The position numbers were made by a program, and so were the translations under genes. A model generated the notes under the pieces. The model had not been told where the DNA came from, did not search any database, and saw only the letters and a list, made by a program, of their open reading frames with translations. A DNA stretch of 37,823 bases, from positions 1 through 37,823 of IMG/VR virus record IMGVR_UViG_3300047440_000353; one strand, 5' to 3'. Below, in pieces: positions 1,128 through 27,519 of the stretch (position 1 is the first letter of the stretch; each line of letters opens with the position of its first letter). Origin of the DNA: a virus.

Positions 1128-1712
1128 TTAGGCGTATGCCGTCCAATGGCACGGCTTGTAGCCAATCACCTTGCCGTTTGATTCGATGGTGTCAGCCTTG
1201 CTCAGGCTGCAGGAGGTGTGCAGCTTGACGCGGCCGTATGAGTTGACACGGCGGGTTTGAGCGGCACCGAGGTACTGGCCGGGAACCGGCACGCACTTGC
1301 CTTGCATGCTCAGAGTCTCGATTTGCTCACGAGCGATTTCGCGGATTTCAACCGTCGCCTTGCCAATCACCTTGGTGACTTCGTAAAACTCAATGTTGGT
1401 TTGGTCGTAGCCCCATGAGCCGCTCAAGACCGTGCCAACCGTGAAGCCGTGGCCCGCGTCGCGCTTGGCTTGTTGCTCGGCCTTGTACGCGTCCTTGCGG
1501 GCTTGCATGGCATCCATTTCCTGCAGCCACTTGGCAGCGTAGGCCATCGCCTGGGCGCGATCCTTGAAGCTGTAGTGAGCCGTGGGCTTAATCGCCTTGC
1601 CAAAGTAGGCCACCACAACGGCTTTGCCGCGTGGGCTCGTGTAGACGTAGGCCACTGCAGGGCTCTTCTTGCTTGCAATCTTGGTGCTGTTCGTGGGGAT
1701 GTAGCGGCTCAT
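1128..1712 (-). CDS. Hypothetical 194-aa phage protein
   Basis: I do not recognise a family. The start at ATG 1712 (MSRYIPTNSTK) is preferred over the longer open frame to 1778 because promoter a (1746-1774) lies within that extension. The protein is soluble and basic. Residues about 12-60 form strand-like segments around YVYTSPRGKAVVVAYFGK, then a helix rich in Ala/Lys, then a second strand-rich half from about 90 containing GTVLSGSWGYDQTNIEFYEV, which resembles a small beta-barrel. Four cysteines are not arranged as a metal site. It is the last gene before the terminator at 1086-1109 and is driven by its own operator-bearing promoter, so it belongs to the co-regulated small-gene group. Confidence 0.7.
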   Translation of the reverse strand: MSRYIPTNSTKIASKKSPAVAYVYTSPRGKAVVVAYFGKAIKPTAHYSFKDRAQAMAYAAKWLQEMDAMQARKDAYKAEQQAKRDAGHGFTVGTVLSGSWGYDQTNIEFYEVTKVIGKATVEIREIAREQIETLSMQGKCVPVPGQYLGAAQTRRVNSYGRVKLHTSCSLSKADTIESNGKVIGYKPCHWTAYA

Positions 1713-1745: not shown

Positions 1746-1774
1746 ACTGTAGCTGATACCGCTACAGTGTGCAA
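1746..1774 (-). promoter_or_regulatory. Promoter a with palindromic operator (and second site 1784-1801)
   Basis: Minus strand: -35 TTGCAC (1769-1774), 17-base spacer, -10 TACAGT (1746-1751). The operator CTGTAGC-N7-GCTACAG (1747-1767) spans spacer and -10. A second related site, GTAGCG-N5-CGTTAC, lies at 1784-1801 with its centre 36 bases from the first. Spacing and sequence are shared with promoters b, c and d. It drives the 1128-1712 gene. Confidence 0.72.
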
Positions 1775-1801
1775 GCATTTAATTGTAACGGTTTGCGCTA
1801 C

Positions 1802-1972
1802 TTAATAGATTGCCAGCACTTCGCGGTAACCCATGCGCAACAGCGCGGCTCTGGCTTCCTGCTCATTGCGCGCCTTGACAGTCACGGCACGGGTGCCGCC
1901 CCCTTGGGTGCGCACGCTGGCAACATACTCTTTGCGGGCTGAAGGGATAGGTTGATATTGGCCGAGGATCAT
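1802..1972 (-). CDS. Small hypothetical protein (56 aa)
   Basis: Begins ATG 1972 and ends TAA 1802. The product (MILGQYQPIPSARKEYVASV, ending in GYREVLAIY) has the layout of a compact beta-alpha-beta domain: a strand YVASVRTQ, the loop GGGTRAV, a strand, then a helix NEQEARAALLRMGY. No family is recognised, though short phage proteins of the form 'modify a residue string, then helix, then G-Y-x-E-V' are common. It follows the 1982-2140 gene by nine bases in the unit driven by promoter b. Its leader shares the 11 bases CTGAAAGCACA with that of the 2235-2549 gene. Confidence 0.65.
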   Translation of the reverse strand: MILGQYQPIPSARKEYVASVRTQGGGTRAVTVKARNEQEARAALLRMGYREVLAIY

Positions 1973-1981
1973 GATGTGCTT

Positions 1982-2140
1982 TCAGTTAAATGCTGCGAGG
2001 GCTTCAGCGGCACGGCGCACAGCCAGCTTAGGCATGCGCAGTTGATAGCCATAGCGGCCCTGGGCCTTCAATTCATCCAGGCGCTCAAGCTTGGCGATGT
2101 AGTTGGCCCATGCTGCTTCCCAGGCGGTTACTTTGTTCAT
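1982..2140 (-). CDS. Small hypothetical protein (52 aa)
   Basis: Starts at ATG 2140, 38 bases after the -10 box of promoter b, and ends at TGA 1982. The sequence is almost entirely helical (MNKVTAWEAAWANYIAKLER, then a basic patch GRYGYQLRMPKLAVRRAAEAL), suggesting a short helical hairpin. No family or catalytic motif is visible. It is the first gene of the promoter b unit and is followed closely by 1802-1972. Confidence 0.65.
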   Translation of the reverse strand: MNKVTAWEAAWANYIAKLERLDELKAQGRYGYQLRMPKLAVRRAAEALAAFN

Positions 2141-2177
2141 TTGGTGCTCGCTTTCGGTTCGTTGATTCGATGAAAGA

Positions 2178-2206
2178 AGTGTAGCGCATTGCGCTACAGC
2201 TTGCAA
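2178..2206 (-). promoter_or_regulatory. Promoter b with perfect palindromic operator (and second site 2216-2233)
   Basis: Minus strand: -35 TTGCAA (2201-2206), 17-base spacer, -10 TACACT (2178-2183). The operator TGTAGCGC-ATT-GCGCTACA (2180-2198) has perfect 8-base arms. A second site at 2216-2233 (GTAGCG-N5-TGTTAC) again has its centre 36 bases upstream. The downstream leader (CATCGAATCA) is shared with promoter c. Confidence 0.75.
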
Positions 2207-2234
2207 GTCTTTTTGTGTAACAGTTTCCGCTACT

Positions 2235-2549
2235 TCAGGCGGCTTTCGCGGCTGTCTTGTTGGCCCGTGCTTGGGCGGCACGCAGATACTTTGCAATGGC
2301 AGCATCACGCTCCGCTTCGGTGGCGCAGTGGCGCCACTGTTGAAGGGCACCATAGGTCTTGCCTGCGCGCGTTGCAAGGCCCATCCATGCGAAGTAAGTG
2401 CCGGGGAGCAAGCCCCACCCGTTTTCTTCGCCCACCGTCAGGATATGCATGCGCACCTCCGCGCCGATGAATCGGCCCTTGCCGTCTTGCACGCTGAAGG
2501 TATGGAGCTGGCGGCGCTCATCCGTGCGGGTGTCTTGCGTGATTGTCAT
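2235..2549 (-). CDS. Hypothetical 104-aa phage protein
   Basis: Starts ATG 2549, stops TGA 2235. The first half is strand-rich (RQLHTFSVQDGKGRFIGAEV and an aromatic GWGLLPGTYFAWMG), the second half helical and Ala-rich (TEAERDAAIAKYLRAAQARA). This order resembles the neighbour at 2586 and other small single-domain phage proteins. I recognise no family. It is second in the unit started by promoter c, 36 bases after the 2586-2807 stop; a small GC hairpin lies in that gap. Its leader carries the CTGAAAGCACA element also seen before 1972. Confidence 0.7.
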   Translation of the reverse strand: MTITQDTRTDERRQLHTFSVQDGKGRFIGAEVRMHILTVGEENGWGLLPGTYFAWMGLATRAGKTYGALQQWRHCATEAERDAAIAKYLRAAQARANKTAAKAA

Positions 2550-2585
2550 GGTGTGCTTTCAGTAAGGGCCGAGGCCCCGGGGTTG

Positions 2586-2807
2586 TTAGGCGGCTACGTT
2601 GACGATTTCGCAGCGAGTCGTACCGCTGAAGCCTGCATACGCACCCTTTGCCGAGCGCTCGGCGCCTTCGCGGGTTGATGCAAAGCCGCAACGCGATTGA
2701 GTAATACCCGGCTGGGTGTTGATGGCGAGCCACGCGAAGGGGAATGCCTTCTTAGAGTTGCGTGTGATTACGCGGCCAGTGGAGAAGGTTGCTGTAAGGG
2801 TGTTCAT
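2586..2807 (-). CDS. Hypothetical 73-aa phage protein
   Basis: ATG 2807 is preceded by GGGAAG at good spacing, and the promoter c -10 box lies 33 bases upstream. The protein (MNTLTATFSTGRVITRNSKK and a second half SRCGFASTREGAERSAKG) contains two short strands, an Ala/Gly helix and a final strand TRCEIVNVAA. No known domain. It is the first gene of the leftward small-gene cluster. The shared operator suggests it is expressed or silenced together with the moron at 12547. Confidence 0.7.
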   Translation of the reverse strand: MNTLTATFSTGRVITRNSKKAFPFAWLAINTQPGITQSRCGFASTREGAERSAKGAYAGFSGTTRCEIVNVAA

Positions 2808-2840
2808 TTATTGCTTCCCGTTGTGTGATTCGATGCCTCT

Positions 2841-2869
2841 ACTGTAGCGCTATCCGCTACGGCTGTCAA
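2841..2869 (-). promoter_or_regulatory. Promoter c with palindromic operator
   Basis: Minus strand: consensus -35 TTGACA (2864-2869), 17-base spacer, -10 TACAGT (2841-2846). The operator GTAGCG-N5-CGCTAC is centred at 2852, exactly 11 bases from the -10 edge as in promoters a and b. There is no second operator 36 bases upstream. It drives 2586-2807 and probably 2235-2549. Confidence 0.75.
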
Positions 2870-8735: not shown

Positions 8736-9363
8736 GCAAGCGCTGGCGGTTCGCAGTGGCGCCCTGTCGCGTGCGTTTCGTGGCGCCTCACCCAAGGATC
8801 AACTCAGCATTGCCATGCTGCACAGTGCCATGGAGCGCGATTTGAAAGCGTTGGCTGACACGCCCGATATCACCCCGGCCGAGGTGGCCGAGCGTCAGCA
8901 TGAAATGGCCGATGTGCTGATTCAGATTGAGAAAGACCGGCACCCCAGAGCGATTGAAATTTCGTGCCGTCCAGGCTGCGCGCATTGCTGCCATATCGAG
9001 GTGAGCATTACCGCCCAAGAGGCCGCATTACTGGCGCGCACGGCTCACGATGAGGGCATCGAAATCGACATGCAGCGCGCACGCGTCCAGGCCGAGGCCG
9101 AGCAATGGAGTGATGTGCCGCCCGAGCTGCGCGCCTGCGTTTTCTTGAATCAGCACGACGGGTGCAAGGTGTACGAAAACCGGCCGCTGGCGTGCCGTAA
9201 CTACCATGTGATTACCTCGCCTGACGCCTGCGATTCAATCCGCCACCCCGGGGCCGAGGTCATCAATTTTGTATCGGTGCGCTCCGAGATTTTGCTTTCA
9301 GCGGCACGCCTTGCAACGAATAACGGGCGCCTTGCCGATATGGTGATGAGGGCCGATCCATGA
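8689..9363 (+). CDS. YkgJ-family cysteine-cluster (Zn/Fe-binding) protein
   Basis: A 224-aa protein whose residues about 93-101 (CRPGCAHCC) and later CVFLNQHDGCKVYENRPLAC with RNYHV match the YkgJ/UPF0153 family: a C-x3-C-x2-CC cluster followed by C...C-x-V/I-Y-x-x-RP-x-x-CR. This family is predicted to chelate zinc or an iron-sulfur cluster; its reaction is not established. The first 80 residues are a lysine-rich start (KKKKAKK) and a helical segment specific to this protein. ATG 8689 has GGGGGTG upstream. Members occur often in temperate phages of Proteobacteria, between recombination and integration genes as here. Confidence 0.82.
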   Translation: MMKKKKAKKTNPQPIKQALAVRSGALSRAFRGASPKDQLSIAMLHSAMERDLKALADTPDITPAEVAERQHEMADVLIQIEKDRHPRAIEISCRPGCAHCCHIEVSITAQEAALLARTAHDEGIEIDMQRARVQAEAEQWSDVPPELRACVFLNQHDGCKVYENRPLACRNYHVITSPDACDSIRHPGAEVINFVSVRSEILLSAARLATNNGRLADMVMRADP

Positions 9364-9599
9364 GCCACACACAGCACCATGATCGCAAGCGCCACACGAT
9401 TCACGGGCGCCACTGGCCCTATGACTACTGCGCTACGCCGGGCTGGTGGGTGCGTCTATGGATGACAAAACCGGCGCGCCGTGCGGCCCATTTGCTGGAG
9501 GCCAATCTACGCAACCGCTCAGCCCATGCTGCGTTGGATTGCGAAGCCGACCGGGTATTGTGGCCACAGGGCCGCAAACCGCATATCTACTATTGGTAA
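9360..9599 (+). CDS. Hypothetical 79-aa basic protein
   Basis: Begins ATGA over the stop of the YkgJ-type gene. Rich in His, Arg and Trp (MSHTQHHDRKRHTIHGRHWP, then GWWVRLWMTKPARRAAHL). Helical middle, and an aromatic end (RKPHIYYW). No domain or metal-site spacing is convincing. Followed by a 47-base gap and then the AlpA-like gene. Confidence 0.6.
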   Translation: MSHTQHHDRKRHTIHGRHWPYDYCATPGWWVRLWMTKPARRAAHLLEANLRNRSAHAALDCEADRVLWPQGRKPHIYYW

Positions 9600-9646
9600 T
9601 AACAGATTGAATGAGGGGCGGCAAAACCACTACAAGGAACCGCCAA

Positions 9647-9883
9647 ATGTCCACCCTAGGAAAAAAACGCAAGTCTCAATCGCTCTCAGCCGCTGCCGAT
9701 CCTGACGCCCTGTTGACCATTGAAACCGTATCGACACTCACCGGCTTTGCACCGAATACGATTCGCCACAAAGTCAAACGCGGCGCCTTCCCGGCGCCTT
9801 TCTGGCGCACTGCGCGCCTCGTGCGCTGGCGTGCCGCTGATGTGCGTGAGTACCTCAAAACAGCCCAGGGACCGGCGCCATGA
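9647..9883 (+). CDS. AlpA/Xis-like helix-turn-helix protein (possible excisionase)
   Basis: A 78-aa protein with the MerR/AlpA-type winged-helix signature from about residue 24: LLTIETVSTLTGFAPNTIRH, KVKRGAFPAPFW, then VRWRAADVREYL. AlpA-like proteins act as excisionases or as activators of integrase genes, and bind short direct repeats next to attachment sites. ATG 9647 has AAGGAA upstream; the longer frame to 9611 is not needed. It overlaps the next gene by ATGA and lies in the operon that converges on the integrase, the lambda-like place for Xis. It is a good candidate to bind the 10-bp arrays upstream of the integrase. Confidence 0.75.
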   Translation: MSTLGKKRKSQSLSAAADPDALLTIETVSTLTGFAPNTIRHKVKRGAFPAPFWRTARLVRWRAADVREYLKTAQGPAP

Positions 9884-12127: not shown

Positions 12128-12211
12128 ATGGTGCCTCGCGTAGAAAATCGATCGTTGTTGACAGAAAGAGCCCAGATTGAAACGCTGCACGAAACGCTGC
12201 GCAACTCTTGT

Positions 12212-12241
12212 CACTTGGGGCCGCTTGCGGCCACTTGCGCC
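12212..12241 (+). repeat. 10-bp tandem repeat array, copy 3
   Basis: Units CACTTGGGGC, CGCTTGCGGC and CACTTGCGCC, preceded by TTGT. The TTGTCACTTG start is shared with copy 4, 74 bases away. The array lies in the integrase leader, about 85 bases from its ATG. Confidence 0.78.
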
Positions 12242-12285
12242 AATCTCAATCTCCCCGCAAACCCGCGTCGTTGCTAGTGTTTTGT

Positions 12286-12315
12286 CACTTGCGGCCACTT
12301 GCGGATACTTGCGGC
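12286..12315 (+). repeat. 10-bp tandem repeat array, copy 4
   Basis: Units CACTTGCGGC, CACTTGCGGA and TACTTGCGGC, the best-conserved array of the set. The centre-to-centre distance to copy 3 is 74 bases, about seven helical turns, so proteins bound at the two would face the same side. Confidence 0.8.
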
Positions 12316-12483
12316 GATGTATGGATTTTTCCATCGAGAGGACTGGTTGTCAAGCAATGACGCCCGGTAAGTGTGAAATCGTGGCGGAAAACGCTGCGCA
12401 AAACGCTGCATTTCAAGATTAACGGCCCTACGCGGCCCCATGTTGCCGCAAGTGGCCTGTAGCGGTTACCGTGAAATGCTGCC

Positions 12484-12512
12484 TTGATTTCTGTTGCGGT
12501 TGCCGCTACATT
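12484..12512 (+). promoter_or_regulatory. Promoter d (moron) with the shared operator
   Basis: Plus strand: -35 TTGATT (12484-12489), 17-base spacer, -10 TACATT (12507-12512). The operator TGTTGCGG-TTG-CCGCTACA (12492-12510) has its centre 11 bases from the -10 edge, exactly as in promoters a-c on the other strand. A partial second site GTAGCG-N5-CGTGAA begins at 12459. It drives the exported protein and HTH genes. Confidence 0.7.
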
Positions 12513-12546: not shown

Positions 12547-12756
12547 ATGAAGCGTTTTTCTGCCGCCCTTTTCGCCCTGATCGTGTCTTTCGGTGTTGCT
12601 GCCCCGGCGCATGCCGCCACGGCCTTTTTGCAAAGCTGCGAAATGGGCACGAGCGTTACCGGCCGCATGGTTTACGTTGGCACCTACAGTTACGGAGGGC
12701 AGACTTTCTCGCGCTCGTTTGCTTCCTACTGCCCGCAAACCCTTGAGGTGTATTGA
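12547..12756 (+). CDS. Small exported protein (moron)
   Basis: A 69-aa protein with a clear Sec signal peptide: basic start MKRF, hydrophobic core SAALFALIVSFGVA and cleavage after AHA (about residue 23). The mature part of about 46 residues has two cysteines (QSCEMG and SYCPQT) that could form one disulfide and a Gly/Tyr-rich middle (RMVYVGTYSYGGQTFSRSF). It is on the opposite strand to the integrase and late genes, has its own promoter, and is followed by a terminator after the next gene: the hallmarks of a lysogeny-expressed moron. Periplasmic or surface location is expected; function unknown. Confidence 0.7.
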   Translation: MKRFSAALFALIVSFGVAAPAHAATAFLQSCEMGTSVTGRMVYVGTYSYGGQTFSRSFASYCPQTLEVY

Positions 12757-12977
12757 TGCTGTCCAAGCCCACGCCGGCCGAGGTGCAAGCTGCACGCGAA
12801 GCCGCAGCCCTGACGCAAACGGAGGCCGCCGCGCTGGTCGGCCTCACGAGCAAATACCGCTGGAGCGAAATCGAGCGCGGCATTACGCCCATGCACCCGG
12901 CCGCCTGGGAGCTGTTCTGTATCAAGATTGGCGCGCACCCGGACTACGTGCCCAGCAAGGCCGCAAAAACGGCCTAG
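12756..12977 (+). CDS. Small XRE-like HTH regulator in the moron operon
   Basis: A 73-aa protein: EVQAAREAAALTQTEAAALV is the first helix pair of an XRE-type domain, followed by SKYRWSEIERG and a family-typical MHPAAWELFCIKIGAHPDY end. The recognition helix (GLTSKYRWSEIERG) has an insertion-like Lys-Tyr compared with classical XRE. The TGATG junction with the exported-protein gene couples translation. Because its own promoter (12484-12512) carries the TGTAGCG-type operator, it is a plausible autoregulated factor for all four such promoters. Similar small proteins are widespread in Burkholderiales phages, without known targets. Confidence 0.72.
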   Translation: MLSKPTPAEVQAAREAAALTQTEAAALVGLTSKYRWSEIERGITPMHPAAWELFCIKIGAHPDYVPSKAAKTA

Positions 12978-26436: not shown

Positions 26437-27519
26437 TTAACTCAGCGATTCAATGGCGGCTTCGATGCTGGCGCGTACCGAGTCGTTCTTGGGCACCGTG
26501 GCCCCGCTGTGCGGGGTCGTGTCGCCTTTGACGCTGGCCGCCGCGCGCTTGGCACGGAGTACCGCTTGAGAATGGGTGCCATTGTTCGCCTGTGTAGCGC
26601 GTTGCGCAAGTATTTTTGAAACGCCCTCGTGCATCTGACAGGCCTGTTTGTAGGCGTCCTCAATGTCGATTTTCTGGCCGTGCTTGCCGCGCAGCTCCAT
26701 CAGGTCGGCCATCGTCTGTTGCACGTCACCAAAAAACTCATGGGCGTCCGCAAAGCTCTGGAGCTGTGTGGCCAGCTCATGCCTCATGCTCTGCTCGGAT
26801 TGCTGTTGCTCTTGCTGGCGTTGCTGCAAAAGCTGATCGACGCGCGGATCACGAAATTCCTGTTGTGGCCGCAAGCCGCCGTTAACGGCCTTACCCGCTA
26901 AGAGCGTATCGAGCATCACGATATCAATGCCGAAATTGCTCACGAGGCCGGCCACCAAAGCGGCTTTGTCTTGCGGTGTGCCCACGCGCAACGTGGCCGC
27001 CGTCTGCATCATGTTTTGCACGGCCTGCAGCGGGTTGCTGTTCTCTTGCCGAATGAAAACCTCATACGGCCGCACAACGTTTTCAAATGCCTGGATGAAG
27101 CCGCGGGCCTGCGCGCCTTGCTGCAAAACCTGTTGCATCTCCCGTTCGCGCCGGTGCACCTCGGCCCTAATCTCGGGGTCAACGCCTGACCACTTTTCGC
27201 GCGCCGTGGGATTCCAGCTCGCCGGGGGTTTGATTTCGGAGGGCGCTGGCGCAGCGTTGGGGTCGGCCTGGGTTTGTTCTTGCGCTGGCGCGGCCGGCGC
27301 GCCCCCTTGCTTGGGTGCGAAGCGGCCCTTTTCATCGCGGCCGGTGCCGGGCTCGGCTGGGTCGGCTGGGTCAGCCTGGGCGGGTGCCTGGGCTGGCGCG
27401 GCTGGCTTCTTGTCGTCTACCTCATCGGTTGCGTGCTGTTCAAACGCTGCGTCAATCGTGTCGCGCAAACTGGGCTCATCGCTGGCCTCATTGCCGGGAA
27501 TCGTGTTTTCGGTTGCCAT
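26437..27519 (-). CDS. Scaffolding protein
   Basis: A 360-aa acidic protein directly upstream of the capsid gene. The N-terminal 100 residues are disordered and Pro/Ala/Glu-rich (DEVDDKKPAAPAQAPAQADP). The middle and C-terminal parts are helical (REKWSGVDPEIRAEVHRRER, EMQQVLQQGAQARGFIQAFE, QLLQQRQQEQQQSEQSMRHE) and the end has Lys/Arg-rich turns (LRAKRAAASVKGD) that could bind capsid. Length, charge and place fit podovirus scaffolds such as P22 gp8. It is expected to direct shell assembly and leave the prohead. No protease gene is present. Confidence 0.78.
   Translation of the reverse strand: MATENTIPGNEASDEPSLRDTIDAAFEQHATDEVDDKKPAAPAQAPAQADPADPAEPGTGRDEKGRFAPKQGGAPAAPAQEQTQADPNAAPAPSEIKPPASWNPTAREKWSGVDPEIRAEVHRREREMQQVLQQGAQARGFIQAFENVVRPYEVFIRQENSNPLQAVQNMMQTAATLRVGTPQDKAALVAGLVSNFGIDIVMLDTLLAGKAVNGGLRPQQEFRDPRVDQLLQQRQQEQQQSEQSMRHELATQLQSFADAHEFFGDVQQTMADLMELRGKHGQKIDIEDAYKQACQMHEGVSKILAQRATQANNGTHSQAVLRAKRAAASVKGDTTPHSGATVPKNDSVRASIEAAIESLS

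Follow-up and report, generated by a model that had tools for sequence, protein, structure and literature searches.

Four promoters in a bacterial phage share seven copies of one palindromic operator and are probably controlled by a small helix-turn-helix (HTH) repressor related to Aca10. The window, by which we mean the whole 37,823-nt stretch analyzed here (IMG/VR virus record IMGVR_UViG_3300047440_000353), carries promoters a, b, and c on one strand and promoter d on the other. In each of them the dyad TGTAGCG-N5-CGCTACA lies between a TTG-type −35 and a TACANT −10 separated by a 17-bp spacer (Table 1). A preliminary description of this DNA had reported four promoters with one palindromic operator each, and the motifs and dyads were confirmed at those positions; our analysis enlarges this observation to seven operators. 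We consider it probable that all seven are bound by a 73-aa HTH protein, the product of the second gene of operon d and a member of the Aca10 repressor family, which would shut all four promoters. There is good support for a dedicated circuit whose sites lie on both strands.

Seven operators at four promoters

The spacer of each of the promoters a, b, c, and d is filled by the dyad, whose center sits 11 bases away from the final base of the −10, exactly as first described. This constant distance arises in part because the TACA of the −10 belongs to the right arm, CGCTACA; that overlap does not explain the fixed 17-bp spacing of the TTG. Only O1b is a perfect dyad, while O1a, O1c, and O1d carry one mismatch each. 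Since the dyad covers both spacer and −10, RNA polymerase would be blocked by a protein bound to it. Scanning with a plain sigma-70 consensus picks up c and not a, b, or d, so we infer the activity of these three from the layout that they share with c. The dyad of b was also considered as a terminator, a reading that was rejected, as the dyad sits within the promoter and upstream of its gene.

Searching the window for the dyad pattern at ≤3 mismatches returned 8 matches against 1.66 expected, a number that none of the shuffles reached (0/100). A matrix built from the four O1 sites and scanned over 37.8 kb, as the preliminary description had proposed, gave exactly seven strong sites, namely the four O1 dyads and three further places (O2a, O2b, and O2d). 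Places as good as the seventh-ranked site occur at a mean of 0.055 per random sequence (200 first-order Markov sequences), and the leave-one-out ranks of the four O1 sites are 3, 3, 4, and 5. An equal density of sites in coding DNA, named at the outset as an outcome that would speak against the operators, was not seen: the eighth matrix site, at 26593, is the best one outside the promoters and scores clearly lower than the seven. The three second operators are weaker than O1 and were absent from the preliminary description. Two of them lie right behind a coding region, O2a after the stop codon of the 56-aa gene and O2b after that of the 104-aa gene. At promoter c, the matrix scan revealed no second operator.

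A homologous stretch of 57 nt, leader included, recurs in promoters a, b, and c (65–70% identity). These three are therefore diverged copies of one cassette, and promoter d lies outside the 57-nt repeat family. The "four separate promoters" of the preliminary description are thus correctly located, but because three of them are copies of one another, a, b, and c are not independent.

Table 1. Promoters, operators, and genes of the putative Aca10-type circuit in the window
Feature	Position	Strand	Sequence or size	Remarks
Promoter a	1774-1746 (1746..1774)	minus	TTGCAC-17-TACAGT	
Operator O1a	1748-1766		TGTAGCTGATACCGCTACA	in promoter a; pattern search and matrix
Second operator O2a	1784-1802		TGTAACGGTTTGCGCTACT	center 36 bp upstream of O1a; fifth best matrix site
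Gene driven by a	1128..1712	minus	194 aa	phrog_37844
Promoter b	2206-2178 (2178..2206)	minus	TTGCAA-17-TACACT	
Operator O1b	2180-2198			in promoter b; perfect dyad
Second operator O2b	2216-2234		TGTAACAGTTTCCGCTACT	center 36 bp upstream of O1b
First gene of b	1982..2140	minus	52 aa	
Second gene of b	1802..1972	minus	56 aa	very weak match, phage Icd-like, E 0.044
Promoter c	2869-2841 (2841..2869)	minus	TTGACA-17-TACAGT	
Operator O1c	2843-2861			in promoter c
First gene of c	2586..2807	minus	73 aa	
Second gene of c	2235..2549	minus	104 aa	
Promoter d	12484-12512	plus	TTGATT-17-TACATT	
Operator O1d	12492-12510			between −35 and −10 of promoter d
Second operator O2d	12458-12476		TGTAGCGGTTACCGTGAAA	center 34 bp upstream of O1d
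First gene of d	12547..12756	plus	69 aa	signal-peptide-like N-terminus
Second gene of d	12756..12977	plus	73 aa	HTH protein homologous to Aca10; proposed to repress promoters a–d

An Aca10 homologue behind two of the operators

Three HTH proteins in the window are candidates: Cro302, CI671, and the 73-aa product of the second gene in operon d. Either the 73-aa protein or CI had been proposed as the regulator; the former is the best candidate, given its Aca10 homology and the operators before its own operon, and CI is unlikely, as the cI/cro interval holds no site. Two operators (O1d and O2d) lie upstream of the operon of the HTH gene, whose ATG overlaps the TGA of the 69-aa gene. Among solved structures, the best match of the protein is PDB 7XI5, which is Aca10 (phmmer E 2.6e-10; profile E 2.2e-20; Foldseek rank 1, TM 0.94 of target, 48% identity; VIA-align Z 11.7, rmsd 0.8 over 57 aligned residues with 47% identity, next entry Z 9.9). 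The AlphaFold model (pLDDT 85.7) has the helices of an HTH fold, with the recognition helix starting at residue Lys33. Arg44 is the residue most needed for DNA binding by Aca10, and Gly49 and Glu52 are dimer residues (PMC9410881). In the alignment the window protein has Thr44 for the critical Arg44 and Ala49 for Gly49, keeps Glu52, and differs from Aca10 by a one-residue insertion before the recognition helix. Because of Thr44 and Ala49 we call it an Aca10 homologue rather than Aca10 proper; homology suggests that it probably works like Aca10. In phage and plasmid records tblastn did not find the HTH protein; a first genome-collection scan for it gave no match, and a second gave two relatives, both without the dyad. 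The annotated phage collection likewise holds no close relatives of the whole phage.

The closest described system is Aca10 of Pseudomonas citronellolis, which represses the acrIC7-acrIC6-aca10 operon and has the minimal site ATACGCTCATTGAGCGTAT (PMC9410881). Both systems have a homologous small single-HTH protein encoded by the last gene of a short operon, a 19-bp operator with 7-bp arms and N5 between −35 and −10, and a second repeat near the promoter. The Aca10 site ATACGCT-N5-AGCGTAT and the window dyad also share their 7-5-7 geometry and a GC at arm positions 5–6, whereas the arms themselves differ (ATACGCT in Aca10, TGTAGCG here). Allowing up to 2 mismatches, the window contains no canonical Aca10 operator; at 3 mismatches there are three matches, a chance-level number. 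Aca10 has its operators at one promoter, whereas those of the window lie at four separated promoters, with no recognized acr gene.

More generally, known Aca promoters have one inverted repeat in the core promoter, with a second one in several families including Aca10 (PMC9410906). The acr-aca operons of Aca1–Aca9 resemble the window in the inverted repeat inside the core promoter, the occasional second repeat outside it, and autorepression by a small HTH protein, but they are described for the cognate acr-aca operon (PMC9410906), whereas the window has four scattered promoters on both strands. The suggestion of a previously undescribed type of circuit is therefore not supported: its HTH protein is an Aca10 homologue and its layout matches described acr-aca promoters. 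What is known is the Aca-type autorepressor and the promoter layout; what differs is the apparent reach over four promoters. Canonical Aca10-operator loci mostly carry one exact site per stretch, with few extra sites that have mismatches, and most of these stretches are partial; a multi-promoter regulon looks unusual for the Aca10 family, as far as such mostly partial stretches can tell. Single phage repressors with many scattered operators are represented by C1 of phage P1, the stoperators of mycobacteriophage L5, and the conserved inverted repeats of phiC31. Those are immunity repressors, in contrast to the window, where the cI/cro interval lacks a site.

Recognition helix and operator arm sort together among Aca10 relatives. 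In an alignment of about 22 HTH relatives (the short matches of L144 and L145 were left out), a Lys at the beginning of the recognition helix (SKYRW, DKARW) is confined to the window protein, L120, and L065, and so is a TGTAGCG dyad close upstream, which in L120 and L065 lies directly upstream of the HTH gene. Conversely, ATACGCT sites lie 129 to 826 bp upstream of Aca10-type genes whose helices are RTWQQW-like ([L/C/A]RxWQxWE-like) in L238, L244, L288, L290, L309, and L338, and L240 has an upstream ATACGCT site with 3 mismatches. Crossed pairing was not found, i.e., no Lys type has a nearby ATACGCT and no RTWQQW type a nearby TGTAGCG. L148, which has Val at the Lys position, carries a perfect GATAGCG-N5-CGCTATC at its operon promoter. 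With three Lys-type and about eight RTWQQW-type members, perfect sorting would arise about once in 165 if the members were independent, which L120 and L065 are not fully: they are 72% identical and share a common neighborhood, so that the Lys-type set comprises three members in two lineages, and both were first met through the motif scan. The O1–O2 spacing is 34–36 bp in the window versus 56–58 bp in L120 and L065. This pairing of Lys33-type helices with TGTAGCG and RTWQQW-type helices with ATACGCT suggests a specificity rule for the Aca10 family.

The driven genes and a candidate circuit

On entry of the phage DNA, the repressor would not yet be present, and for this reason host sigma-70 RNA polymerase would fire all four promoters, yielding small proteins from a, b, and c and an exported protein together with the HTH protein from d. 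As the HTH protein accumulates, its dimer would bind the O1 dyad over the spacer and −10, helped at a, b, and d by the weaker O2 about 3.5 turns upstream, and would close all four promoters, its own promoter d included. From the sequence we infer the binding by the HTH protein, the repression, its timing, and the O1–O2 cooperativity, as well as a defense-related role for the small driven genes. The apparent reach of the Aca10-like protein would then be seven operators at four promoters on both strands.

None of the driven genes matched an Acr or other anti-defense family (Pfam, PHROGs, NCBIfam, PADLOC), and the 69-aa protein of d has no family match. A known acr is missing beside most Aca-like genes (PMC9410906). 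The small genes are possibly candidates against bacterial defenses. Viral contigs contain at least 504 relatives of the 194-aa protein; no dyad was found upstream of such relatives, so the operator is not tied to this protein family. In L199 (3298-4197), 49 bp separate a relative of the 194-aa gene from an Aca10-like HTH gene behind it; L216 has such an HTH gene ~0.7 kb downstream of a 194-aa relative. This gene order, which is that of acr-aca operons, links the 194-aa family to such regulators independently of the window and is no demonstration of anti-defense activity for the family.

Archaeal viruses carry one conserved regulatory sequence before many small anti-defense genes, and this sequence can be used to find them (PMC11065993). 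Those are archaeal promoters and regulators, whereas here we have a bacterial phage with seven sites only. A comparable reading of the window, which strikes us as possible rather than probable, is that an Aca10-type repressor of altered specificity switches off in trans three duplicated cassettes with small anti-defense genes along with its own operon, and that the shared operators reveal new anti-defense genes, including the widespread 194-aa family. If true, operator sharing would offer a direct way to unlinked early, possibly anti-defense, genes in bacterial phages and would nominate the five small genes of a, b, and c, one of them from a family with >500 relatives in viral contigs.

Other candidate binders and neighboring repeats

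The dyad is not peculiar to this phage: other elements have it in the promoters of higBA modules, and other phages have it in the S24-CI/Cro interval. These sites are practically the same dyad, often paired at 26–34 bp and overlapping the −10, but the regulators belong to different families (S24 CI, P22-Cro/YdaS-like, and HigA). The exact dyad is common in viral contigs (at least 120 stretches, many of them probably chance or coding), which is why we used a stricter pattern with −35 and −10; this promoter-restricted pattern occurs in 19 stretches of viral contigs. Because several HTH families use the dyad, its binder must be found by other means, and sequence alone cannot name it. In a recurring arrangement (L129, L131, L133, and L134), one dyad promoter (TTGCATAACGTAGCGTGAACCGCTACAGT) stands before two small genes. 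Lambdoid phages with paired TGTAGCG-N5-CGCTACA-type clusters beside genes for S24 CI and a P22-Cro/YdaS-like Cro include L125, L128, L126, L132, L011, L067, L077, L093, and L122. Our literature search found no description of this immunity operator class, and nothing relevant on the dyad sequence in open-access literature.

Such phages suggest an alternative, in which the CI (671-1123) and/or Cro (302-592) encoded in the window uses the dyad as its immunity operator, with a–d under lysogeny control as in a lambdoid prophage. Alpha-proteobacterial-type lambdoid phages carry the dyad as O_R/O_L beside S24-type CI and P22-Cro/YdaS-like Cro (L125, L128, L126, L132, and others). In L132 a dyad promoter drives cro, L125 has its dyads grouped in two clusters, of which one separates an S24 CI gene from a small Cro-like gene, and L128 has three plus two sites; moreover, the window Cro has weak P22_Cro/YdaS matches and Arg at the second position of its recognition helix. 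We nonetheless regard this explanation as unlikely. An autoregulated pair should have a site in the cI/cro interval (548-670), but the best matrix score there is −1.8; CI671 lacks a match to the S24 domain, and no relative of it occurs in dyad loci or, indeed, in viral contigs at large, and the one marginal relative of Cro302 lies away from any dyad. Other repeats, ACAAGCTGT (two copies) and TGTCAAG-N4-CTTGACA, fit CI/Cro sites better. The phage might alternatively borrow a HigA-type antitoxin, of host or co-resident origin, or some other XRE regulator of the host that binds the dyads. Elsewhere TTGN6GTAGCGN5CGCTACANT is often a higBA promoter, as at five higB-type loci in viral contigs (L136, L130, L141, L043, and L127) and before more higB-like genes in Burkholderiales genomes; HigB and HTH domains were confirmed for L136; there, within 9038-9679, a higBA module is followed 613 bp on by a second dyad promoter, which drives a 301-aa gene. 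However, no higBA is seen in the window, none of the driven genes matches HigB or HigA, and a private HTH gene stands behind the operators. Across 399 Burkholderiales genomes the frequency of the promoter pattern does not exceed that of its reversed control, so no host regulon is visible, and a borrowed regulator appears very unlikely to us. We give still less credence to the notion that the dyads are remnants of promoter-cassette duplication or RNA stem-loops and not protein sites at all. The 57-nt cassette shared by a, b, and c and the terminator-like score of the b dyad fit it, yet d keeps both dyad and spacing outside the cassette repeat, O2 copies recur at a near-fixed distance in a, b, and d, and transcription would be expected to start downstream of the dyads. 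The 73-aa Aca10 homologue stays our preferred binder.

Several further repeats accompany these regions. In L136, HigA may control the neighboring 301-aa gene with its second dyad promoter. Within the cI/cro interval of the window, the direct repeat ACAAGCTGT-N4-ACAAGCTGT at 602-623 is a better candidate CI/Cro site, as is the perfect dyad TGTCAAG-N4-CTTGACA at 2947-2964 before the rightward early genes. A repeated element, CACTTGCGGC, recurs in 10-bp steps at 645-664, 2908-2941, 12208-12318, and 12446-12455, that is, in the cI/cro interval, inverted near the early rightward region, and in the interval between int and operon d; these repeats are candidate arm-type integrase sites or sites of another regulator. 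Finally, a perfect inverted repeat, GTTAGTTT-N6-AAACTAAC, lies at 248-269 of the window.
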